Below, piece by piece: positions 1 through 8,063 of a stretch of 8,063 bases of DNA (position 1 is the first letter of the stretch; each line of letters starts with the position of its first letter). Source of the DNA: Bacillota bacterium (lineage in GTDB: Bacteria > Bacillota_E > Sulfobacillia > Sulfobacillales > Sulfobacillaceae); assembly GCA_021802375.1 (NCBI GenBank), contig JAKAAL010000154.1, positions 1-8,063 on the forward strand. The letters are read 5' to 3'. The translations under genes were made by a program, and so were the position numbers. The notes under the pieces are model-generated. The model had not been told where the DNA came from. It ran no database searches and saw nothing but the letters and a program-made list of their open reading frames with translations.

Positions 1-150
1 ACATCATGAACTTCGCGTTGACGATGATGCCAAACATTCGGTCGCGGTGGGAGAAGTCATCAAGTCTCCAAAATTGTTCTGACCCCGTAGGAGAGGTTGT
101 CCCAGGCTTCGTAGATTTTCCTACCGCCTATTTTCTTCCGATTACGCGGT
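1..150. other. Left-edge stretch without a supported gene
   Basis: This stretch lies downstream of the regulator's stop codon. I see no strong terminator: the best minus-strand candidate is a 5-bp ACCGC/GCGGT stem with an 18-nt loop and no good U tract. A minus-strand frame stays open from a TAG near position 127 to the window edge. Its distal part (residues such as FWRLDDFSHRDRMFGIIVN) looks protein-like, but it has no convincing start with a ribosome binding site and I do not recognise it. It may be the start of a gene or a gene remnant continuing outside the window. Confidence 0.3.
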
Positions 151-825
151 TTATGGCCTCCCGTTAATCTCAACAGCTCTCTGGGATTGCTGAGGCAGGC
201 GTCGCGCGAGTGCCCTGGTTCCCGCCGGAGTCAGGATGAGACTACGGGAGGGGCCACGGATAACCCATCCAGAGGAATTGAATGTGGACGCAAGGGCTGC
301 CCCCAATTGGCCACCCACATGATAGGATTTTTCCGTCCAATCGAGGCAAGCTCTGACCAGCGGGCGGTGAGAATTAGGTAGTACCAGCCTCCAAGCGCGG
401 ATCTGCTCGTGCCCTAAATCCGTGACGGTCATCGCCTTGGTCTCGGTATCCCACAAAAGCCAATGGCGGGTGATCCACTCGTGGGTGATGCACACGCCCA
501 GATAACCCGCCAAATGGTCATAGCACGTGCGCGCTCGACACAAGGCTTCAATTTCAGAGTCCGTAGGGAGGTTGAGGCGCCTGAGGGCCGTTAGCAGGTC
601 GGCCTTCGCGATTCGCCGGTAGTATACGCGACCGCGGTATGTGATTTTCCGGGCGTACCCATTAGCAATCGCCTGCTGGAGGATCGCGTCGCGCGCACGC
701 GGAGGCCACCCAAAATGCTGGCCTAAATCGCGTGCCGTGCAGCATTCACGGGACTCCAAGTAGGCCATCGCTGCAGACAATGCCGTGTCGGGATGCATAC
801 TGGGAACTCTCTGCGAAGCGTCCAT
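151..825 (-). CDS. ArsR-related winged-helix transcriptional regulator with atypical N-terminus
   Basis: Predicted 224-aa cytoplasmic DNA-binding regulator. The C-terminal two-thirds carries hallmarks of a large ArsR-type subfamily: RTCYDHLAG at about residues 99-107, CLDWTEK at 160-166 followed by HVGG, and a second winged-helix-like segment ending in LTPAGTRAL. The N-terminal domain (about residues 13-72) looks like a helix-turn-helix with a YRGRVYYR wing, but lacks the usual ArsR opening (the IGDPTRxxIL-type segment), so it may be a diverged or swapped DNA-binding domain. I chose ATG at 825: it is preceded by GGGAAG and lies 7 nt after the exporter's stop codon. A longer frame reaching to 945 would lie inside the exporter gene. 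ATG at 798 is a shorter alternative. As the last gene of the putative microcin C-like operon it probably autoregulates the cassette, although its ligand and operator are unknown. Family assignment is fairly secure; the role is inferred from position. Confidence 0.8.
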   Translation of the reverse strand: MDASQRVPSMHPDTALSAAMAYLESRECCTARDLGQHFGWPPRARDAILQQAIANGYARKITYRGRVYYRRIAKADLLTALRRLNLPTDSEIEALCRARTCYDHLAGYLGVCITHEWITRHWLLWDTETKAMTVTDLGHEQIRAWRLVLPNSHRPLVRACLDWTEKSYHVGGQLGAALASTFNSSGWVIRGPSRSLILTPAGTRALARRLPQQSQRAVEINGRP

Positions 826-832
826 TCTTCCC

Positions 833-2089
833 TTAATCTCCTTTCGCATCGCGCACACGGGCATTCCAGAGTGGACTCCACCGGCCAATCGCCGCCATCG
901 CGAGCTGGGCACCACCACCAATGACTGCCAGTGGCCACCAAGCATTCACCATACTCACGAGTAATCCGCCAAGGATGGCTCCCAACGGGATCGCCGCATA
1001 CGAGATGGCTCGGCCCATGGAGGCAACCGCCCCTAATAAGGGGCCGGGGACCGTCGCTTGTTGAAAGGTAAACCACGATACGGCCATCACCGTCACGAAG
1101 CCCGACACTCCGAGCCAAGCCACGGCCATGATGGGCCAAAGCGGGAAGACCATACCCAACGTCAGAAGGCCGGCGAAGCCCATCGTACCTACGATGATGA
1201 CACCTGTCGACCAGCGGCGTGCGATCCGGGGTGCCATCAGTGCCCCGAGAATTGATCCGGCGCCGCCAGCGCCGAGAATAATCCCGGCATACACCATGAA
1301 CAGGTGGAGCTGGTGAATGACTAAATAGATAAGATTGGCTTCGACGATCATCAGTCCAAAACTCGTACCACTAAAGAGGAGAACGCCAAGAAACACCTCG
1401 AGTTGCGCACGAAAATACGTGGTGACAGCCCGCCACCCGACTCTGTCGATGTCCGACGCATCATCGGGGCGCATCGGGACGGAGACCCGACCAGGTAGAA
1501 ATAATCCTGCCAGAAACAGGCCCGCAATACCAAAGGAGAGGGCATCCACCCCAATGGCGCCAGCCACGCCCAGATTGCTCACGACCAGCGTCCCTACAGC
1601 TGGCCCCAGGGCGCCGAACAGACTGTTAAACAGTTGAAGTCGTGCATTCACCTTGATGTACCAATCGCCCGACACGGCCACCTGGATCGTGCGCTGAAAC
1701 ACCGGATAGAACACCGTTTGACTACTCGATAGGGCGAAGCCCAACGCGAGGAACGCCCAAAAATCCACATGATGCGCGTGCTCCAGCAGAGCCAGTATCC
1801 CCGCGATGACGGTGGCCATGGCTTGCGTGCCGACCAGTACCGAGCGACGGCGGGGGGTATTGCCCAATGCCCCCACAAAGGGACCCCACACGATATACGG
1901 CACATATTCGAGGGCATACATCAACGCTGTCGCATCGGCCGACCGGGTGAGGCGCAGTACGGCGATGGGGAGCGCGAGGCGATACGTCCAATCACCAAAG
2001 CTTGAAATACCCATGGCCGAAACAATGATCCGATAGTTCCAACCCGCGCGGGTCCCGACGGGCCTGTCGCTCGTCGCCGATTGGCTCAT
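833..2089 (-). CDS. MFS exporter, MccC-like (peptide-nucleotide efflux)
   Basis: A 418-aa integral membrane protein of the major facilitator superfamily, the usual size for 12 transmembrane helices. The opening (NYRIIVSAMGISSFGDW) and first helices resemble the EntS/MFS_3 drug- and siderophore-efflux group. The loop between helices 2 and 3 (GPFVGALGNTPRRRSVLV, about residues 69-86) is the motif A region, with the usual acidic residue replaced by Asn and an RRR cluster retained. Its ATG overlaps the TGA of the upstream enzyme gene as ATGA, which implies translational coupling and a shared mRNA. In E. coli the microcin C operon encodes an MFS pump, MccC, that secretes the mature product and contributes to self-protection; the same gene order here suggests the same job. 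Family call is strong; substrate is inferred from context, and a generic drug exporter remains possible. Confidence 0.85.
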   Translation of the reverse strand: MSQSATSDRPVGTRAGWNYRIIVSAMGISSFGDWTYRLALPIAVLRLTRSADATALMYALEYVPYIVWGPFVGALGNTPRRRSVLVGTQAMATVIAGILALLEHAHHVDFWAFLALGFALSSSQTVFYPVFQRTIQVAVSGDWYIKVNARLQLFNSLFGALGPAVGTLVVSNLGVAGAIGVDALSFGIAGLFLAGLFLPGRVSVPMRPDDASDIDRVGWRAVTTYFRAQLEVFLGVLLFSGTSFGLMIVEANLIYLVIHQLHLFMVYAGIILGAGGAGSILGALMAPRIARRWSTGVIIVGTMGFAGLLTLGMVFPLWPIMAVAWLGVSGFVTVMAVSWFTFQQATVPGPLLGAVASMGRAISYAAIPLGAILGGLLVSMVNAWWPLAVIGGGAQLAMAAIGRWSPLWNARVRDAKGD

Positions 2090-3243
2090 ACAGGCTGACC
2101 GACCCAGGCAACGGTCTCGGGCAATCGCTCAGCGCGGGCGCCACCGCACGTGGGACACGTGACGTCCCGGGACCACCGTTCCGTTTCGTGTGGAACGAAA
2201 TCATCGAACCCTGTGGCGATCATCCGGCCGGCGGTCATACTGGGCGCTAGGCGACAAATAAACCGGATGACCTCGGCGGTGATAGCCGCCGCTTGTAGGG
2301 CCACGAGGGGGTAAATGGCCGCCCGATCTTCGCCAAACCGCCGTCCGCTCATCTCCAAGGCGACCATTTGCTCGCGCAGTTGGGGCGCCAAGGGATCGGT
2401 CTGTTCGACTTGGCGGGTCCAGCAGTCCACACAGCCCGTGACACCGGGTATGATCGAATAGATAAAGGCCCGATCACGGTCGACCCCACCGGTTAGGAAC
2501 GGAACATTCGCGTTGACACAGCCTTGATTGACCCAGGACACGATGCGCGTTTTCGGCCGATCAACGGCGGCAATGACCAAATCGTGCGCCGCGACAACGT
2601 CGTGCACCGCGGCGGCGCTATCGATCTGTTTCTCATGAGCCGTGATTGTCGTGCGGGTCCCGAATTGGGCGAGCCGTTTCGCGGCCAGCTCCACTTTAGA
2701 ACGACCCAAGTCCTCCTCGGAATAGAGAATCTGGCGATTGAGATTGGACAATTCGACGGTGTCATAGTCCAAAATCGTGAGATGTCCGACGCCCATGCCG
2801 ACGAGGCTCAAGGCCACGTGGCTTCCCACGCCTCCCAACCCCAGGACAGCAATACGGGCATCAAATAACCGCTCTTGAAACGCGTACTTACTGTCCTCCA
2901 AGGTCGCGTACAGTTCAAAAAATCCCAGATTTCTGGAATATCGGTCAATTTGATAGGGATCCCACGACGGAGAAGAAGAGCTGGTCGTCTCGAGTAGCCC
3001 GAGATGGAGGAACTCCTTCAGAGCCTCCTCGACATCGGCCGTCGTCGTGGATTCAAAGCGGGATGTCATGGTGTGGATAATTTCTTCTGGGGTATAGTCT
3101 CCGTTCAATAGCGTTAACAGTGTTTCGGCGATCCCATCAGGATCCGCGATGAGATGCGATTTGCCTTGACGACCTTGGATAATCACCGTGGATTCGACCT
3201 TATACCACGGGCACACAGATTTCATTTGGATCCGCCGCGCCAC
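2086..3243 (-). CDS. mccB-like: MccB-like ThiF/E1-fold peptide nucleotidyltransferase with N-terminal peptide clamp
   Basis: A 385-aa enzyme. Residues about 15-85 form a small domain with beta-strands then helices (VESTVIIQG ... EEALKEFLHLGLLE), like the RRE/peptide-clamp domain that binds precursor leaders in RiPP enzymes and in MccB. RYSRN (101-105) opens the E1-like domain. A Rossmann GLGGVG (135-140), DYDTVELSNLNRQ (159-171, with the Arg that contacts nucleotide phosphates), Lys183 and AAVDRP (Asp228) are the expected ATP-binding and adenylation elements. CVDC (271-274) and CPTC (363-366) form the structural zinc site. MccB converts the C-terminal Asn of a short peptide, through a succinimide, to a nucleotidyl phosphoramidate; ThiF, MoeB and UBA enzymes share the fold, but the clamp and the Asn-ending mini-gene upstream favour MccB. 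I chose GTG at 3243: GGGAG lies 7 nt upstream. The next in-frame ATG is at 3225. AMP versus CMP use cannot be read from sequence. Confidence 0.85.
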   Translation of the reverse strand: MARRIQMKSVCPWYKVESTVIIQGRQGKSHLIADPDGIAETLLTLLNGDYTPEEIIHTMTSRFESTTTADVEEALKEFLHLGLLETTSSSSPSWDPYQIDRYSRNLGFFELYATLEDSKYAFQERLFDARIAVLGLGGVGSHVALSLVGMGVGHLTILDYDTVELSNLNRQILYSEEDLGRSKVELAAKRLAQFGTRTTITAHEKQIDSAAAVHDVVAAHDLVIAAVDRPKTRIVSWVNQGCVNANVPFLTGGVDRDRAFIYSIIPGVTGCVDCWTRQVEQTDPLAPQLREQMVALEMSGRRFGEDRAAIYPLVALQAAAITAEVIRFICRLAPSMTAGRMIATGFDDFVPHETERWSRDVTCPTCGGARAERLPETVAWVGQPV

Positions 3244-3250
3244 GACACAT

Positions 3251-3255
3251 CTCCC
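3251..3255 (-). promoter_or_regulatory. Ribosome binding site deciding the GTG start of the mccB-like gene
   Basis: GGGAG within AGAGGGAGA on the minus strand, 7 nt before the GTG at 3243. It supports this start over the in-frame TTG at 3342, which would overlap the precursor gene, and over the ATG at 3225. Confidence 0.6.
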
Positions 3256-3272
3256 TCTTTCTATAAATGAAT

Positions 3273-3311
3273 AAGGGGGCGGTCTCAGCCAATTGGCAGG
3301 CACGCCCCCCT
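3273..3311 (-). terminator. Intercistronic terminator-like hairpin between precursor and mccB-like genes
   Basis: On the minus-strand RNA, AGGGGGGCG pairs with CGCCCCCUU (9 pairs including one G-U). It encloses a loop containing the palindrome GCCAATTGGC (3288-3297) and is followed by UAUUCAUUUAUAG, which is only moderately U-rich. It starts about 15 nt after the precursor stop and ends about 30 nt before the enzyme start. In the E. coli microcin C operon an intercistronic terminator lets most transcripts end after mccA, giving excess precursor over enzyme. The position and structure here suggest the same leaky attenuation. Confidence 0.65.
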
Positions 3312-3325
3312 CGGTCGGTTTGGTC

Positions 3326-3382
3326 TTAGTTGGGCACACCAAAGCCGGCGATGCTTCGGTCAGTCGTCTGAATGCGAATCAT
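3326..3382 (-). CDS. mccA-like: MccA-like precursor peptide, 18 aa ending in Asn
   Basis: A tiny gene encoding MIRIQTTDRSIAGFGVPN followed by TAA. Three things support it: a perfect AAGGAGG ribosome binding site 8 nt before the ATG; position immediately upstream of a MccB-like enzyme, separated by a terminator-like hairpin; and a C-terminal asparagine, the one residue that MccB-type enzymes require and convert into the nucleotide-linked, non-hydrolysable aspartyl-AMP mimic. Known microcin C-type precursors range from seven residues (E. coli MRTGNAN) to a few dozen, and their sequences are otherwise not conserved, so homology searches easily miss them. The basic, hydrophobic start (MIRI) could engage the enzyme's clamp or help uptake by target cells. 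The same frame is open further upstream, to about 3616 inside the transposase gene, but the SD marks this ATG. Production and activity are inferred. Confidence 0.8.
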   Translation of the reverse strand: MIRIQTTDRSIAGFGVPN

Positions 3383-3390
3383 GCGTTCCG

Positions 3391-3397
3391 CCTCCTT
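3391..3397 (-). promoter_or_regulatory. Perfect Shine-Dalgarno of the precursor gene
   Basis: AAGGAGG on the minus strand, 8 nt from the ATG at 3382. It is the best SD in the left cassette and fits a highly translated mini-gene. It is also the main evidence that this short frame is real. Confidence 0.75.
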
Positions 3398-3408
3398 CCA
3401 CAGTTGGC

Positions 3409-3415
3409 ATATATA
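3409..3415 (-). promoter_or_regulatory. Candidate -10 box of the microcin C-like operon promoter
   Basis: TATATAT on the minus strand. It would place transcription start near 3402 and give a short leader of about 20 nt with the SD just inside it. The -35 position at a 17-bp spacing (TCCGTA, 3433-3438) matches TTGACA poorly, so the promoter may be weak, activator-dependent or altered by the neighbouring insertion sequence. Confidence 0.4.
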
Positions 3416-3443
3416 GGGATTTCGAGTCGTGTTACGGAATCCC
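3416..3443. promoter_or_regulatory. Inverted repeat GGGATT-N16-AATCCC, possible operator
   Basis: Six-base arms at 3416-3421 and 3438-3443 lie directly upstream of the candidate -10 box, where a dimeric repressor would block RNA polymerase. The ArsR-related regulator of the same operon is the obvious candidate binder. The right arm also falls within the proposed end of the insertion sequence, so it could be coincidental. Confidence 0.3.
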
Positions 3444-3445
3444 TC
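3431..3445 (+). repeat. Putative left terminal inverted repeat of the IS256 element
   Basis: GTTACGGAATCCCTC pairs with the right end at 4897-4911 at 11 of 15 positions. It is followed inward by GGTAACGCAGAAAATTT, a layout common at IS256-family ends. The match is imperfect, so the boundary is approximate. Confidence 0.4.
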
Positions 3446-3536
3446 TTTTTGGTAACGCAGAAAATTTCTACTCCTTCTTCCGCCAAGGGGTAGAGCGGTA
3501 GAATGGGACCGGGGAGCGGTGCCGGCCGCATCGACC

Positions 3537-4838
3537 CTATGATGCCGCCGACCCAACCAGACGCTCCCCACCATTGACCATGCCCCGGAGTCGCTTCTGG
3601 AGCACCGGGAGATCACGATATCCGGTCAGCCGATGTAGACGATCTTCCATGAAAAGGCTCGCTGCTGCAAGCCATCGCAACACCTGGTCGCCATTGGACC
3701 ACCGCTTGACATTCTTCGCATGGGTGCGGAACTGGCCGTTGACGGATTCCAACGCATTGGTCGTCGCCAGGGACCGACGTAGCGTACCGGGGAGCTCCAG
3801 TCGCTGGACTGTCACCGTCTCTTCCATCCCCTCACGGAGGCTCTTGGCTGCTTGGGGATAATCGTGTTCCAATTCTGCGGCGAGCGCACTGAGCGCCTGC
3901 AATGCTTCCTTGGCGGTCGGCTCTTGGTAGGCTTTTCGGAGGCGCTGGCGGACACGGGCTTGGTCGGAATCGGCCACGTGATCTAAGACGTTCCGTTGTT
4001 TATGGACCGTGCACCGTTGAATGGCCATGGTGTCGCCGAAGACCTCGCGGAGCGCTTTGGCCAAGGCTTTCGCTCCATCAATCACCGCGAGCGCCCCCTC
4101 TGGGACGGCGAATCCCCGATCGACCAAGTCCGTGAGGAGGCTTTTCACGACGGCGCTGTTTTCCGTCGCCCCGTCGGCGAGCCCGAGGATCTGCTTGCCG
4201 CCATCCCGATCAATGCCCAAGGCGACCACGACCAGGTGGCCCCCGACGTGGATTCCATCGACCATCAGCACGACCCACGTGTGCGTATCCAGACGTCGGG
4301 CGAGAAATGTCTCCAGCGCTTGGCGCGTCGCGCGAATGAACCGGCGGCTGACCGTGCTTTTACTAGGGACTGCGTCTAACGCCGCGTTCAGCCCCGGATC
4401 GGCATGATGCTGTTGACGACTCGCTAAACCAAATAACATGCGCTCCAGGGCGGCCTGCGTGACGAGCGTGGGGTCTTGGAAGGCATGGTAAGTCTCGAGC
4501 GGCACTTCCTCCCCAGTGACGGCTCGCACCCGGGGGTGCGTGACCGGCACGCGGCGGTCTCCCACATAGACGTACCCTTCCTCGACCCCATGGCGGACCG
4601 CGGTCCGTTCCGGATTGTGATGACCTTTCGGGCCGGCGAGGGCGTCCACCTCGCTCGCCATCAACTGTTGCAACGTCTGGAGACCGATACGCACCGAAAG
4701 CGCTAGGAGTCCCTCATGAGCTTGGCGCAAAACATCCGCCAAAGGTTCCGGAACTAGGGGGCGGTCCGCGTTTTGGACCACCGGAGATGGTCGCTTCTTC
4801 TGGGATTTCGGCATCGACTTCTTTATACTGGAGCGCAA
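3537..4838 (-). CDS. IS256-family DDE transposase
   Basis: A 433-aa transposase of the IS256 (Transposase_mut) family, cutting and rejoining the element's ends. Counting from the TTG at 4838, the catalytic triad is visible: Asp194 in LMVDGIHVGG, Asp254 in AVIDGAKAL and Glu364 in TTNALESVNGQFR. The family signature QRCTVHKQRNV (about 274-284), with its C-x2-H pair, is also present. The N-terminal part with LMASEVDALAG is typical. TTG at 4838 has AGGAGGA 7 nt upstream; ATG at 4814 (protein starting MPKSQKK) is the alternative and has only a weaker AAAGAAG. No frameshift or internal stop is seen and the length is usual for an intact member, so the element could be active. It reads in the same direction as the microcin C-like cassette, so transcription leaving it could reach the precursor gene. 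Confidence 0.93.
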   Translation of the reverse strand: MRSSIKKSMPKSQKKRPSPVVQNADRPLVPEPLADVLRQAHEGLLALSVRIGLQTLQQLMASEVDALAGPKGHHNPERTAVRHGVEEGYVYVGDRRVPVTHPRVRAVTGEEVPLETYHAFQDPTLVTQAALERMLFGLASRQQHHADPGLNAALDAVPSKSTVSRRFIRATRQALETFLARRLDTHTWVVLMVDGIHVGGHLVVVALGIDRDGGKQILGLADGATENSAVVKSLLTDLVDRGFAVPEGALAVIDGAKALAKALREVFGDTMAIQRCTVHKQRNVLDHVADSDQARVRQRLRKAYQEPTAKEALQALSALAAELEHDYPQAAKSLREGMEETVTVQRLELPGTLRRSLATTNALESVNGQFRTHAKNVKRWSNGDQVLRWLAAASLFMEDRLHRLTGYRDLPVLQKRLRGMVNGGERLVGSAAS

Positions 4839-4896
4839 GGCGATTCCTCCTGTGGCTGAATATTGTGGTTGGCACCTTTTATTCAACCAGACTCTC

Positions 4897-4911
4897 GGGG
4901 GAATCGCTAAC
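4897..4911 (-). repeat. Putative right terminal inverted repeat of the IS256 element
   Basis: On the minus strand this reads GTTAGCGATTCCCCC, matching the left end at 11 of 15 positions. It lies about 60 bp upstream of the transposase start and 28 bp past the stop of the neighbouring gene. Confidence 0.4.
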
Positions 4912-4939
4912 CTCAAATTCCACGAAATTCGGGACTATC

Positions 4940-5290
4940 TCAAGTTATGATGTCCACGGGGATTTGTAATCTGGCTGCGTGCGCCAATTCACCCTGCATG
5001 CCTGAGCTCGCAGGTACATCAAGCTTCCACAACGCGCGGCAATCGCCCATCCATTCCAATCCCCAGTCCAGCGCCAAACGCCTCTCGGCGGCGACATCAT
5101 CTCGCACAAAGGTTGGAAGATAGAGGTGCGGAGTAACTGGGAAGAAGCCCTCCTCAAATGCCCGACGCGACATAGCGATTGCCCAAGCAACGTGAAGCTG
5201 ATGCTGGCGAAGTGTGGCCCGGGCCCCGCGCTGGCGGATGTGGTCCGGAACACGAAACGGAGAGCAGATATATACCTTGTCGCGTTCCAT
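4940..5290 (-). CDS. Nucleoside 2-deoxyribosyltransferase-like (DUF4406-like) protein
   Basis: A 116-aa soluble protein. VYICSPFR (6-13), the helix with AMSRRAFEEGFFPVTPHLYLP (about 39-59), DD/ER (64-70), DCRALWKL (83-90) and SSGMQGELAHA (95-105) follow the order of motifs in the small DUF4406/YtoQ-like branch of the nucleoside 2-deoxyribosyltransferase fold. Glu101 sits where the family nucleophile is expected. Such proteins bind nucleosides or nucleotides and may cleave or transfer N-glycosidic bonds; the true substrate is unknown. Length is full for the family. ATG at 5290 is preceded by GAGGGAT. It follows the macro-domain gene by 40 bp in the same direction, which suggests joint work on a ribosyl nucleotide or NAD-derived compound. 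The IS256 element lies 28 bp beyond its stop codon. Confidence 0.7.
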   Translation of the reverse strand: MERDKVYICSPFRVPDHIRQRGARATLRQHQLHVAWAIAMSRRAFEEGFFPVTPHLYLPTFVRDDVAAERRLALDWGLEWMGDCRALWKLDVPASSGMQGELAHAARLQIPVDIIT

Positions 5291-5330
5291 TGTTATCCCT
5301 CACTATAAACTGTAGTTGACCTTATTCGCC

Positions 5331-6035
5331 TTAACGCCACCGTAAGCGCCGTTCCGCGAACCATTGCTTTGTCATTGACGACGGTACGGACTGAACTTGA
5401 AGAGAATCCCATGCCGCACGCATTTGGAGTGCGGCCCGCCGCACCGGAACGTGACCGACTCCCGTCCCGAGTCCCGGACAAGCAAGACGGTCAATTCTCT
5501 GATCCGGATTACACTGGTTCCAATCGGCCACCGCAAGCAGAACGGCTCGGAATGCTAAATATGGATTCATCGAGTGTGCTATGGACTGGGGCGTCCGCAT
5601 TGTGGGGGCGACGATCAGGAAGGGGTGACTAGGATGTTCAGGCGTCGGTACAACAAGGGCTTGACCTACTGGCAATTCGCCGTGAGCTCTATTACTAATG
5701 GCAGTCATCACGCGATCCTCGATGTCAACACTATGGTCGCGATACGTCTTGGCATATTGCTTGTCCAAACCGCCTCGCATCACGCCAAAGCTGTTAGCCG
5801 GCGACACCAGCGCGGTGCCTGGTAGCTGCCCTAAAATGTCGCCATTAATGACCGCAACCTCAGGCGTACTACGAAACGTTACCTTCCATGCCTGCGCCAA
5901 GCGCCGCGGGCCAACGAGTACGATATCGGGTAGTAATGCAGAGATGGGTGTAGGGGACACAATTGAATCGTTCTGTGCGCCAATGAAATTATGCAAACGG
6001 AGATTAAGATATGGCCACCAATCACGAATACTCAT
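5331..6035 (-). CDS. Macro-domain protein (ADP-ribose-binding type)
   Basis: A 234-aa soluble protein. The macro domain begins around residue 55 with EVAVINGDILGQ (INGDI at 63-67), then ALVSPANSFGVMRGGLDKQY (PANSFG 79-84, MRGGLDK 86-92), GELPVGQALVVPT, FLIVAPTMRTP and ACPGLGTGVGHVP (GLGTGVG at 188-194). These correspond to the Asp-containing strand, the adenine and distal-ribose loop and the diphosphate-binding glycine loop of macro domains. MRGGLDK in place of the common GGGVDGAI places it in a divergent branch that I recall from phage and mobile-element proteins. The first 50 residues, WPYLNLRLHNFIG, are not a domain I recognise. Start ATG at 6035 shares one base with the TGA of the membrane protein gene upstream and has GGAGGAG nearby. 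Likely role: binding or hydrolysing ADP-ribose or a related metabolite, possibly removing ADP-ribose marks; the ligand is inferred. Confidence 0.8.
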   Translation of the reverse strand: MSIRDWWPYLNLRLHNFIGAQNDSIVSPTPISALLPDIVLVGPRRLAQAWKVTFRSTPEVAVINGDILGQLPGTALVSPANSFGVMRGGLDKQYAKTYRDHSVDIEDRVMTAISNRAHGELPVGQALVVPTPEHPSHPFLIVAPTMRTPQSIAHSMNPYLAFRAVLLAVADWNQCNPDQRIDRLACPGLGTGVGHVPVRRAALQMRAAWDSLQVQSVPSSMTKQWFAERRLRWR

Positions 6036-6535
6036 CACGCATCGGCCTCCTCCGCAGGGTGAGGGCGCTTCAAAAGGGGCATCACATGCCATGCGAGTCG
6101 CACGAAGATCTGCGCCAATCCCAACGTAAGGATCTGGACGATAAACCCGAAAAACACACCCAGTCCCATAAGGAGAGCGTCGACACCATTAAGCGTCATG
6201 TGTAGGGGCGTCAGGCCATGGATAATTCTATGGGTCAGCGCCATTCCAACGACCGTTACCAGCAAGCTTCCGGCAGCGAGGGAACGACTGTGAGGTTTCA
6301 TCGCTACAATGCGCCACGAGCCCGTTGCGGCCCCAACCAATCCAACCGCCATCCCGAAAATAAGCCAGCCAACCCGCAAGCCCACCAGATACACGGGAGG
6401 CATGGATGAAGCTATTCGCTGGAAGGTCAGCCAAACAAACAACGCCAACAGAATAGCCATGGTCAGAAAACCAAACAGCAACTTTAGTCCGGTCCGTTGA
6501 TATATTTCTTTGTAATTTGCAGGTCCGCCAATCAT
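6035..6535 (-). CDS. Four-helix membrane protein, paralogue of the next upstream gene
   Basis: A 166-aa protein of unknown function with about four predicted hydrophobic segments: LKLLFGFLTMAILLALFVWL, VYLVGLRVGWLIFGMAVGLV, SLAAGSLLVTVVGMAL and ALLMGLGVFFGFIVQIL. It has a short basic start and a charged tail (LKRPHPAEEADA). It aligns along its whole length with the protein at 6581-7087: both have (N/H)Y..(I/V)Y.R.G before helix 1, PP.YLVG before helix 2, HM.L.G before the last hydrophobic segment and LAWH near the end. The start is uncertain: AAAGGAGA fits TTG at 6538 or 6541 as well as ATG at 6535. The stop overlaps the macro-domain start by one base, indicating coupling. I recognise no family. 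Position next to a VirB11-like gene makes an accessory membrane part of a transfer or secretion module possible. Confidence 0.7.
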   Translation of the reverse strand: MIGGPANYKEIYQRTGLKLLFGFLTMAILLALFVWLTFQRIASSMPPVYLVGLRVGWLIFGMAVGLVGAATGSWRIVAMKPHSRSLAAGSLLVTVVGMALTHRIIHGLTPLHMTLNGVDALLMGLGVFFGFIVQILTLGLAQIFVRLAWHVMPLLKRPHPAEEADA

Positions 6536-6580
6536 CAACAATCATCTCCTTTCAACGTTTCAGACGACACAACCGCACTG

Positions 6581-7087
6581 CTATGGGTGACGCAAAGAAG
6601 CATGGCGTGAAGCCAAAACGCTTTGGAGGCCATGCCAAGCCAAATTGATTAGTGCAGACATCACGAGGTACGAGGCCTCTTGAATAGCCATTCCACACAA
6701 CGAGCCAACCACCAACGTAACGACTCCGCCGCCGGTGAGCATCATGTGTACGGAAGACGCAGCATGCAGAATGGGGCGACTCCAATAAATGGACACGAAC
6801 AACAAGGTCAAACCACTACCGATGACAGCGCCAGGCAAATGATCTCCGCGGAACGTCACCACGCCTGCTTGAACAGCCGCCCAAAGACCATAGAGAAACC
6901 CGACGATGAACCAACTGACCCAGACGCCGACAAGATAGGGGGGCGGAAGCTGGGCAGGGAACCATCGGAATACTACCCACGACGCGAACGCCAAGAGCGC
7001 CGTCCGACCAATCCACTGCGCCAACAACTGAATTCCGGGCCGACGATACACCGTTCGATAATGATCAAGCCGTTCCGTGACCGACAT
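6581..7087 (-). CDS. Four-helix membrane protein, tandem paralogue
   Basis: A 168-aa integral membrane protein of unknown function. Hydrophobic segments are seen around AQWIGRTALLAFASWVVFRW, PYLVGVWVSWFIVGFLYGLW, AVIGSGLTLLFVSIYW and VVTLVVGSLCGMAI, with a basic C-terminus. It shares the HY..VY.R.G, PP.YLVG, HM.LTGG and LAWHGL landmarks with the protein encoded 45 bp downstream, so the two arose by tandem duplication and have since diverged strongly. I chose ATG at 7087 (MSVTERL), which has AGGAG 9 nt upstream; ATG at 7093 would place the SD too close, and a frame to 7150 has no SD. The 63-bp gap to the previous gene holds no clear promoter. Being kept as a pair suggests a hetero-oligomer or two related roles. 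Confidence 0.7.
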   Translation of the reverse strand: MSVTERLDHYRTVYRRPGIQLLAQWIGRTALLAFASWVVFRWFPAQLPPPYLVGVWVSWFIVGFLYGLWAAVQAGVVTFRGDHLPGAVIGSGLTLLFVSIYWSRPILHAASSVHMMLTGGGVVTLVVGSLCGMAIQEASYLVMSALINLAWHGLQSVLASRHASLRHP

Positions 7088-7150
7088 TGCCATCCTCTCC
7101 TCTCTCAGAACTAACCGCACGGACTGAAAACCCCGGACGATGATGAGCAT

Positions 7151-7543
7151 TCACTGCAGGAAATGGTGGTAGAGCCATAGAAACGGCAGGATGTATCCAT
7201 GCAAGTTTGCATGCCATGCTAAAAATCCGTGAACAACGGCGGGCCATGCCACGGCGTGACGTGCGATAGGCCGCGGTGCCATCGTGACCCGGAGGAGAAA
7301 TCCCCCATAGTTGACCACGAAGGCTGTGCGCACGATGCCAGCAATCCCATTAAGCCCTTGTTTCCACCATGGTTGAGGTGACATACGCAGCGGCGGTCCC
7401 CAACACCTTATTGCCGCGAGTGCAATAAGGGTCCATGAGGGGTTCTTCGATGGGCCCATGTAGAACCGGCGCTTATCCATGGCTATATAGATGTCTCGGA
7501 TATCCTCGCCCGTAGCCTTCGTCGGGTCAGTCCGTCCGCTCAT
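7151..7543 (-). CDS. Hypothetical small hydrophobic protein, 130 aa
   Basis: A 130-aa protein I do not recognise. The first 30 residues are polar (MSGRTDPTKATGEDIRDIY); then come DKRRFYMGPSKNPSWTL, a short hydrophobic stretch ALAAIRCWG, and a Trp-, His- and Pro-rich C-terminal half with a possible helix near GIAGIVRTAFVVNYGGFLL and another hydrophobic end (VHGFLAWHANLHGYILPFLWLYHHFL). It is probably membrane-associated. ATG at 7543 overlaps the upstream gene's end by 17 bp and has GGAAAGA 8 nt upstream. A longer frame to 7606 has no SD and lies inside the upstream gene. The overlap places it in one operon with the VirB11-like fragment, which makes a small component of the same transfer machinery plausible but unproven. 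Confidence 0.6.
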   Translation of the reverse strand: MSGRTDPTKATGEDIRDIYIAMDKRRFYMGPSKNPSWTLIALAAIRCWGPPLRMSPQPWWKQGLNGIAGIVRTAFVVNYGGFLLRVTMAPRPIARHAVAWPAVVHGFLAWHANLHGYILPFLWLYHHFLQ

Positions 7544-8063
7544 GATGCGTCTTTCCACTGGCGTTCCGCCCATCCGCCAAACCTTCGAGTTCCTTAAGAT
7601 AATCACGTAAGGTCACTATCCCGGTCGGCTCTGCGGGCAAGGCCAGTTCCATCATCCTCCGGTACATCGGTTCTAGTTCTCGCTTTTGCTCATCGCCGCA
7701 ATGAATCGTGGTCATCAAGCAAGGATGCCCCTTGATGATGGCTTCAAGAAACGGGACTGTATCCTCACTCGTTCTCAATTTACCAATGCCCGAAGCGCGA
7801 GCTACCCCAAATATCGGGTTCAGACGATCCGACTTATCTACGGTATGAGTAAAACGCCCGCCTCCGGAGACCACGCGCTGACCATCCTGATTACTAGAGT
7901 CCAAGACCAATCCATCTGTCTCTGGCATAATGACACTCCTTTCCATGAAATCTTCTAGCAGTGGTCGTTGCGTAGCCGTTATGTCTAGTCGGCGAACCGC
8001 GCGCCGCAACGCATCATCAACGCAACCTTGACTAGCAACCAACGACCTTCTTCGGTCTTCATC
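7527..8063 (-). CDS. Partial protein with VirB11/DotB-like secretion ATPase signature
   Basis: The reading frame is open to the window edge: seven more codons precede the TTG at 8042, with no stop, so the N-terminus probably lies outside. The recognisable part is IGKLRTSEDTVPFLEAIIKGHPCLMTTIH (about positions 7695-7790 on the minus strand). It resembles the GE(L/I)RxxEA...GHPGSxTTIHA block of VirB11/TrbB/DotB ATPases that power type IV secretion or conjugation. Two things are unusual: Lys replaces the conserved Glu of GE(L/I)R, and the residue after TTIH is Cys, not Ala. The preceding 90 residues do not align with ATPase motifs that I can identify, and the Walker A motif, if present, must be off the window. 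The protein then ends in a charged tail that overlaps the next gene. It could be a degenerate or specialised member, or a chance likeness. Confidence 0.45.
   Translation of the reverse strand, partial: DEDRRRSLVASQGCVDDALRRAVRRLDITATQRPLLEDFMERSVIMPETDGLVLDSSNQDGQRVVSGGGRFTHTVDKSDRLNPIFGVARASGIGKLRTSEDTVPFLEAIIKGHPCLMTTIHCGDEQKRELEPMYRRMMELALPAEPTGIVTLRDYLKELEGLADGRNASGKTHHERTD

Follow-up and report, generated by a model that had tools for sequence, protein, structure and literature searches.

A small Bacillota operon pairing an Asn-ended mini-gene with a ThiF-like adenylyltransferase outside the sampled microcin C enzymes

We asked what kind of peptide pathway is encoded by a four-gene cassette (positions 151 to 3,443) in an 8,063-nucleotide stretch of contig JAKAAL010000154.1 (assembly GCA_021802375.1), from a Bacillota bacterium of the Sulfobacillaceae; the whole stretch is called the window. 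A sequence-only reading had taken the cassette for a microcin C-type operon, in which a short peptide ending in Asn, an MccB-like enzyme and an exporter yield a peptide-nucleotide antibiotic. Our analysis points instead to a minimal operon for a ribosomally synthesized and post-translationally modified peptide (RiPP) with a ThiF-like adenylyltransferase (TLAT), in a subgroup apart from those microcin C enzymes that were sampled, the likeliest chemistry being an ATP-driven cyclisation at the C terminus of the peptide (probability roughly 0.7). What the computation shows is the genes, the fold predicted for the enzyme, the ATP-site residues conserved in it, its place in the tree and the fact that regulator, peptide, enzyme and MFS protein occur again in relatives. 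The cassette has the following features.

3391–3396, minus strand: AGGAGG ribosome-binding site of the mini-gene, at normal spacing (direct sequence reading).
3326–3382, minus strand: precursor mini-gene of 18 codons, MIRIQTTDRSIAGFGVPN (sequence and translation).
3273–3311, minus strand: GC-rich hairpin in the gap between mini-gene and enzyme gene, a possible attenuator (ViennaRNA fold of 3245–3325).
2086–3243, minus strand: enzyme of 385 amino acids with a RiPP recognition element (RRE) and a ThiF/E1 adenylyltransferase domain (Pfam ThiF 7.2e-48, PDB match, AlphaFold2 model).
2986–3243, minus strand: the N-terminal, PqqD-like RRE of this enzyme, about residues 1–86 (model and structural alignment with MccB).
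833–2089, minus strand: MFS exporter of 418 amino acids (Pfam MFS_1 2e-18).
151–825, minus strand: ArsR-related regulator of 224 amino acids (homologues in 3 of 12 loci).

All four minus-strand genes of the sequence-only reading were found, in the transcription order mini-gene, hairpin, enzyme, exporter and regulator, and all four open reading frames (ORFs) are intact. Only the start of the regulator needed correction: it is best placed at 825, since the 264-amino-acid ORF from 945 would overlap the MFS gene (this longer ORF had no Pfam match). The Asn-ended mini-gene, the Shine–Dalgarno (SD) sequences, the ATGA overlap of enzyme stop and MFS start (2086–2089) and the intercistronic hairpin could each be read directly, as that reading had it. 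The C-terminal end of the 18-mer is AGFGVPN, and the gap of 81 bases that follows its gene (3245–3325) folded with −23.9 kcal/mol in ViennaRNA. The enzyme starts with GTG behind GAGGGAG, at a position identical in a relative of 98% identity (P0001). A consensus scan of 3200–3560 revealed no sigma-70 promoter and no T-tailed terminator above threshold. Because the mini-ORF, the hairpin and the RRE–E1 enzyme recur in the loci of relatives, the layout is more than chance.

The AlphaFold2 model of the enzyme had a pLDDT of 90.8 and matched MccB best, aligned from residue 3. Its RRE part consists of strands and then three helices, and the PqqD match of this part (E 0.0051) was below the Pfam cut-off. 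When the PDB was searched with the sequence, MccB (126 bits) scored higher than ThiF (90) and MoeB (86). The earlier description of an MccB-like enzyme with a peptide clamp was thus confirmed, MccB being the closest solved relative. R170, K183 and D228 were invariant in 36 of 36 alignment rows, and their spacing matches that of the ATP/Mg residues R167, K180 and D225 of EnfB (PMC12250964). With a fused RRE–ThiF/E1 protein, the conserved Arg-Lys-Asp and a short adjacent precursor gene plus transporter, the cassette shows the features of a TLAT RiPP system. In the profile comparison proposed along with the sequence-only reading, the NCBIfam ThiF and MoeB models stayed well under their cut-offs both with the window enzyme and with E. 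coli MccB, and even E. coli MccB was matched by no NCBIfam model named MccB; NCBIfam therefore does not discriminate between these families. We rejected a housekeeping ThiF or MoeB, given the RRE, the top PDB score of MccB and the position of five ThiF/MoeB-type rows elsewhere in the tree described below. An anti-phage E1 system was also discarded: in PADLOC the enzyme matched the ThiF domain only, and the other seven window proteins scanned matched nothing.

Where does the enzyme stand among its relatives? A word-filtered protein search, in which 7999 candidates were scored, gave 310 relatives at E<=1e-20. Among the best 120 of these 310, which were listed, the closest were P0001 (98% identical over its full length, standing for 18 member sequences) and P0002 (51%). 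With E. coli MccB as the query, the same kind of search gave 88 proteins at E<=1e-15, and not one of the 120 was identical to any of them. Our main tree had 93 enzyme rows, a midpoint root and several long branches; long-precursor MccB enzymes, IndF and EnfB were absent from it. The MccB clade comprised 23 rows (support 100/93), namely 21 found from E. coli MccB together with the E. coli and H. pylori plasmid proteins. The window enzyme fell among 39 rows that form a clade (100/94) and include the enzymes of Nonomuraea, Salmonella and Pantoea, and the enclosing clade of 45 rows (100/96) adds those of Macrococcus bovicus, a WWIII-type Niallia, three WYFI-type loci and Priestia. Tree rows that we take to be IndF-, EnfB-, PaaA- or GrcB-like, and one that we take to be L. 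johnsonii MccB, carry labels of our own, based in part on precursor motifs and a review. In the 45-row clade, peptides were called for 10 loci; nine of them have Gly, Ala, Ile or Thr as the last residue, and the window peptide alone has Asn there. A single clade of the MccB rows with the window enzyme, P0001 and P0002, a group chosen after the tree had been seen, was rejected by the approximately unbiased (AU) test (log-likelihood lower by 63.6, p-AU 0.0046). The remaining positions were less firm: loci L044, L017 and L033 fell outside the 45-row clade with weak support, L024 and L025 stood beside the MccB clade, again weakly supported, and P0208, which was found from MccB, grouped with L026 and L029. 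A quick tree of 140 rows also kept the window enzyme apart from E. coli MccB and joined it with L013–L015; it differed from the main tree in that the Macrococcus and NWYFI enzymes lay deeper, at an uncertain placement. The sequence-only reading had depended on the enzyme not grouping with other RiPP E1 families, and this expectation largely failed, as the enzyme sits in supported clades without sampled MccB sequences.

The peptides of the relatives tell a similar story. DNA context, and hence peptides, was read for relatives more distant than P0001 and P0002. By tblastn of plasmid records we found enzymes in, among other sources, Nonomuraea (41% identity), Pantoea piersonii (35%), Salmonella plasmids (34%), Niallia (32%), Macrococcus bovicus (29%) and Sporosarcina (29%), and each of these six is preceded by a short ORF with an SD-like motif, whose stop lies 61–118 bases before the enzyme start, with a stable hairpin between. 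The peptides are MIKKSTKRYSVAGGTQKG in Nonomuraea (L013), where a second copy downstream of the enzyme gene reads MIKKSTKRYSIAGGVQKA, MKFTKFNASNATLAAVG in Pantoea, MKFTKHATSNAKLALVG in Salmonella, METIKNKAALLGGVPG in Macrococcus (L016, where a start four codons earlier is possible), MKIRKLSNKQVSKTAVEPR in Sporosarcina and MKKVTVRRATKVEATTWWIII in Niallia. In the class of the Bacillota metagenome-assembled genome (MAG) G001, 9 of the 154 genomes scanned had an enzyme match at 1e-35; in the phylum of G001 the figure was 3 of 299 at 1e-30, and of the 398 genomes searched in the phylum of G407 just two, G407 and G001, matched at 1e-55. These genomes yielded MRLRPTNAGSVFGSVPG (L044, from G407), MTIRKVAVIRNSTNPR and MELKRVTASPDDTIWYII (G401), MEIRRVTAGPDDTIWYFI (G415) and MELKRLTMNPDDVNWYFI (G001). 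Precursors were called at 31 distinct loci, by eye, from SD strength, position and the following hairpin; 17 loci had a candidate mini-gene, three of them tentative (L025, L028, L043), and 14 had none that we trusted (L022, L024, L026, L029, L030, L031, L036–L040, L069–L071). As controls, the mcc loci of E. coli and H. pylori gave the heptapeptides MRTGNAN and MKLSYRN. Candidates ending in Asn, besides that of the window, came from the microcin C loci L021 and L023 and from the tentative L025, while the last residue was Gly and Ala for the two L013 peptides, Gly for L014, L015, L016 and L044, and Arg for L017 and L033. No relative was seen in the viral contigs scanned, and no phage record had a place covering 80%; a DNA-level plasmid search, an E. 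coli genome search with the Salmonella relative and an Rfam search gave nothing useful.

We then compared the 18-mer with these peptides against shuffled sequences (16 comparisons, p values uncorrected). It aligned best with the two Nonomuraea peptides (p 0.0028 and 0.0002), followed by those of L044 (0.018) and Macrococcus (0.025, or 0.0096 with the longer start). The alignment was not significant for Pantoea (0.077), Salmonella (0.14), Sporosarcina (0.10), the WYFI/WWIII peptides (0.29–0.81) or the microcin C heptapeptides (0.51 and 0.35). Where the window peptide has its terminal Asn, the aligning peptides carry Gly or Ala, and a Ser at position −9 is common to the window, both Nonomuraea, the Pantoea and the Salmonella peptides. 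Mini-genes of other types were also seen. Three Ind-like loci (L010 in G001, L035 in G415 and L041 in G401) have 18-mers ending in NWYFI, IWYFI and IWYII before an RRE–ThiF gene, and the G415 and G401 copies have long ORFs nearby that by eye resemble MFS proteins. On a Priestia koreensis plasmid (L027, 2525–2801) three tandem MKKIVVRKLATVTVPQLRPGT mini-genes, each behind GGAGG, stand upstream of a ThiF gene.

The transporter and the regulator were compared by tblastn with 12 loci. The window MFS protein matched in four of them (L013 at 34%; L014, L015 and L016 at 25–26%) and found nothing at E<=1e-3 in the remaining eight, among them the mcc loci of E. coli and H. pylori. The regulator matched in three, L044 (44% over 117 amino acids), L015 (33%) and L014 (28%), all of whose regulators carry ArsR-type helix-turn-helix domains (HTH_5/HTH_20). 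At L017, L010 and the E. coli and H. pylori mcc loci neither protein matched at this threshold. The sequence-only reading had regarded the ArsR-like regulator as added to a microcin C operon; the regulator is indeed present, but it is no add-on, because homologues adjoin the enzymes of three relatives. Other loci are equipped differently: the Macrococcus regulator is of the HTH_3/RNPP type instead, the Sporosarcina locus has an ABC transporter and an M3 peptidase, and in Nonomuraea an S9 prolyl oligopeptidase gene (2526–4871 of L013) overlaps the mini-gene start (4868–4924) by ATGA, its product being a candidate leader peptidase or immunity protein.

How might such a cassette work? The RRE would hold the 18-mer by its N-terminal half, the E1 domain would turn the C-terminal carboxylate into an acyl-AMP, and a nucleophile inside the peptide would displace AMP, giving a dehydrated cyclic product (−18 Da). 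Evidence from the family supports such an adenylation, and the RRE–ThiF enzymes EnfB, IndF, GrcB and PaaA are reported to cyclise peptides after it (PMC12250964, PMC12150305); the examples of EnfB and IndF would make ring closure within the peptide, water being lost, the most likely outcome. As the nearest relatives end in Gly, with no side chain, or Ala, with an inert one, their nucleophile cannot be the last side chain. The shared Ser at −9 is a lead only. Position and family suggest that the MFS protein would export the product and the ArsR-type protein would regulate the operon; an antimicrobial or signalling role is a guess. Among known systems, the cassette resembles IndF/IndA (NWYFI, indolylamide) and EnfB/EnfA (WWIII, enterofaecin) in its short precursor, its single RRE–E1 enzyme with a transporter and its 45-row clade, which holds the enzymes labelled by these motifs; unlike theirs, the 18-mer has no Trp and no aromatic end of the WWIII or NWYFI kind. 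With the GrcB thiolactone RiPPs it shares an RRE–E1 protein that activates a carboxylate in a RiPP precursor, but the 18-mer has no Cys and no radical SAM gene was found in the window. Compared with pantocin A, the putative PaaA row (L022) lies elsewhere in the tree and the 18-mer contains no Glu.

Several observations weigh against C-terminal cyclisation. The window contains no peptidase gene to trim a leader, the 18-mer lacks Cys, Trp, Glu and Lys, the groups used in known TLAT cross-links, and MccB is still the best fold match of the enzyme. In addition, L044, whose peptide resembles that of the window, stands on a long branch that does not belong to the 45-row clade and carries Ser residues at −8 and −4, and L016, read from its short start, has no Ser at the shared position. 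A bolder version is doubtful in our view: mobile elements would have spread a RiPP class whose peptides, of 17–20 residues and with any end (Gly, Ala or Asn), have the C-terminal carboxylate joined to a Ser some nine residues before it, the product being a ThiF-made macrolactone. In the open-licence literature searched, the accessible parts describe neither this combination nor such a macrolactone; the group itself may be among the unannotated RRE–ThiF clusters in the supplement of PMC12150305.

The surroundings of the cassette bear on how it reached this genome, and directly upstream of it stands one further gene.

3537–4916, minus strand: IS256-family transposase (NCBIfam IS256 9.3e-71).

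This IS256 element ends near 4941, where many matches in other genomes stop. Window positions 4942–8063 are 100% identical to a contig of genome G412 (L068) that has neither IS256 nor the cassette and continues with other sequence; because that contig lacks both, IS256 and the sequence to its left represent an insertion or rearrangement relative to the G412 element. A relic of the cassette was found in L001 (2645–3867, contig G001:C97), with DNA 94.5–97.3% identical and a deletion that runs from midway in the enzyme gene to midway in the MFS gene. These matches suggest that the host probably belongs to the class of G001. Together the G412 comparison and this relic support mobility of the cassette, and the suggestion of horizontal transfer through mobile elements is backed by them; parts of the cassette also recur in Nonomuraea, on Pantoea and Salmonella plasmids, in Macrococcus and in G407. 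At window positions 93–136, matches of 27–45 bases were seen near IS256-like copies in L051, L052, L053 and L058, so that IS256-family ends may flank the cassette on both sides. At about 7560–8170 of L044, the 3′ end of the enzyme gene is replaced by sequence that by eye resembles part of an opposite-strand transposase. A Macro-domain protein (5331–6092) and a DUF7768 protein (4940–5290) lie on the backbone of the element and are probably unrelated to the cassette, since G412 has them without it. An ORF that runs off the window end (7527–8063) weakly matches a VirB11-type ATPase (E 0.036), which hints that the element could serve conjugation or secretion.

Which other explanations could account for the cassette? 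It might be a true microcin C type, with an AMP or CMP phosphoramidate on the C-terminal Asn and a processed product that blocks aspartyl-tRNA synthetase. Much of the layout would fit: as in MccA–MccB–MccC, an RRE plus ThiF/E1 enzyme with the same predicted fold (MccB is the best PDB match in sequence and fold) is preceded by a very short precursor with a strong SD sequence and a separating hairpin, is followed by an MFS gene, as in E. coli mcc, and in the window the peptide ends in Asn. A terminator hairpin is reported between mccA and mccB (PMC6495379), and of the two MccB clades, with precursors of 7–8 or 17–56 amino acids, the smaller, long-precursor clade would accommodate 18 (PMC6495379). 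Nevertheless the window enzyme lies outside the sampled MccB clade in the tree and by the AU test, both run without long-precursor MccB enzymes, and the relatives' peptides lack the terminal Asn found in all microcin C precursors known to PMC6495379 and required for the N–P bond. With an Asn-to-Gly peptide, moreover, MccB halts at the O-AMP (acyl-AMP) stage, which thiols can trap (PMC13255007). The peptide is also an 18-mer rather than a 7-mer, an ArsR-type regulator is present, the MFS protein has no BLAST-level match in the two mcc loci, and the 88 proteins from the E. coli MccB search include none of the 120 listed relatives. Tailoring or immunity genes were not seen either: in ten window ORFs no Pfam or NCBIfam match to the MccD/E/F, HIT, MccS or carboxymethyltransferase families was found, though minimal mcc clusters can consist of A-B-C only (PMC12250964) and the window ends 150 bases past the regulator. 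We therefore rejected microcin C membership, with the long-precursor MccB enzymes unsampled, and regard it as quite improbable; the proposed block of aspartyl-tRNA synthetase is not supported either.

The terminal Asn may have another meaning. As it is real, Asn-specific chemistry may occur in the window member, and the enzyme could perform just the first half of MccB chemistry, Asn18 capturing its own acyl-AMP as a succinimide to leave an aspartimide end. The first MccB step proceeds in this way (PMC12250964, PMC13255007) and no second ATP would be needed, but relatives ending in Gly or Ala are incapable of it, so that such a product would be special to the window member; we consider it unlikely. 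Least likely of all is that a mobile element carries the cassette in a degenerate or silent state. The collapsed relic in a Bacillota MAG, the interrupted enzyme gene of L044 and the IS256 copy directly upstream would agree with decay, whereas the four window ORFs are intact and P0001 is full-length and represents 18 sequences. We thus favour the TLAT RiPP operon with C-terminal cyclisation.

Finally, what does the cassette tell us about this enzyme family? More and more new peptide chemistry comes from RRE–ThiF enzymes, and here one of them is found in a very small cassette that occurs in distant bacteria and on plasmids and whose peptides vary at the last residue. An Asn-ended short ORF adjoining an MccB-like gene is by itself insufficient to call microcin C. 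The variation between Gly, Ala and Asn ends could show whether the end side chain or the enzyme dictates the product of E1-type RiPP pathways.

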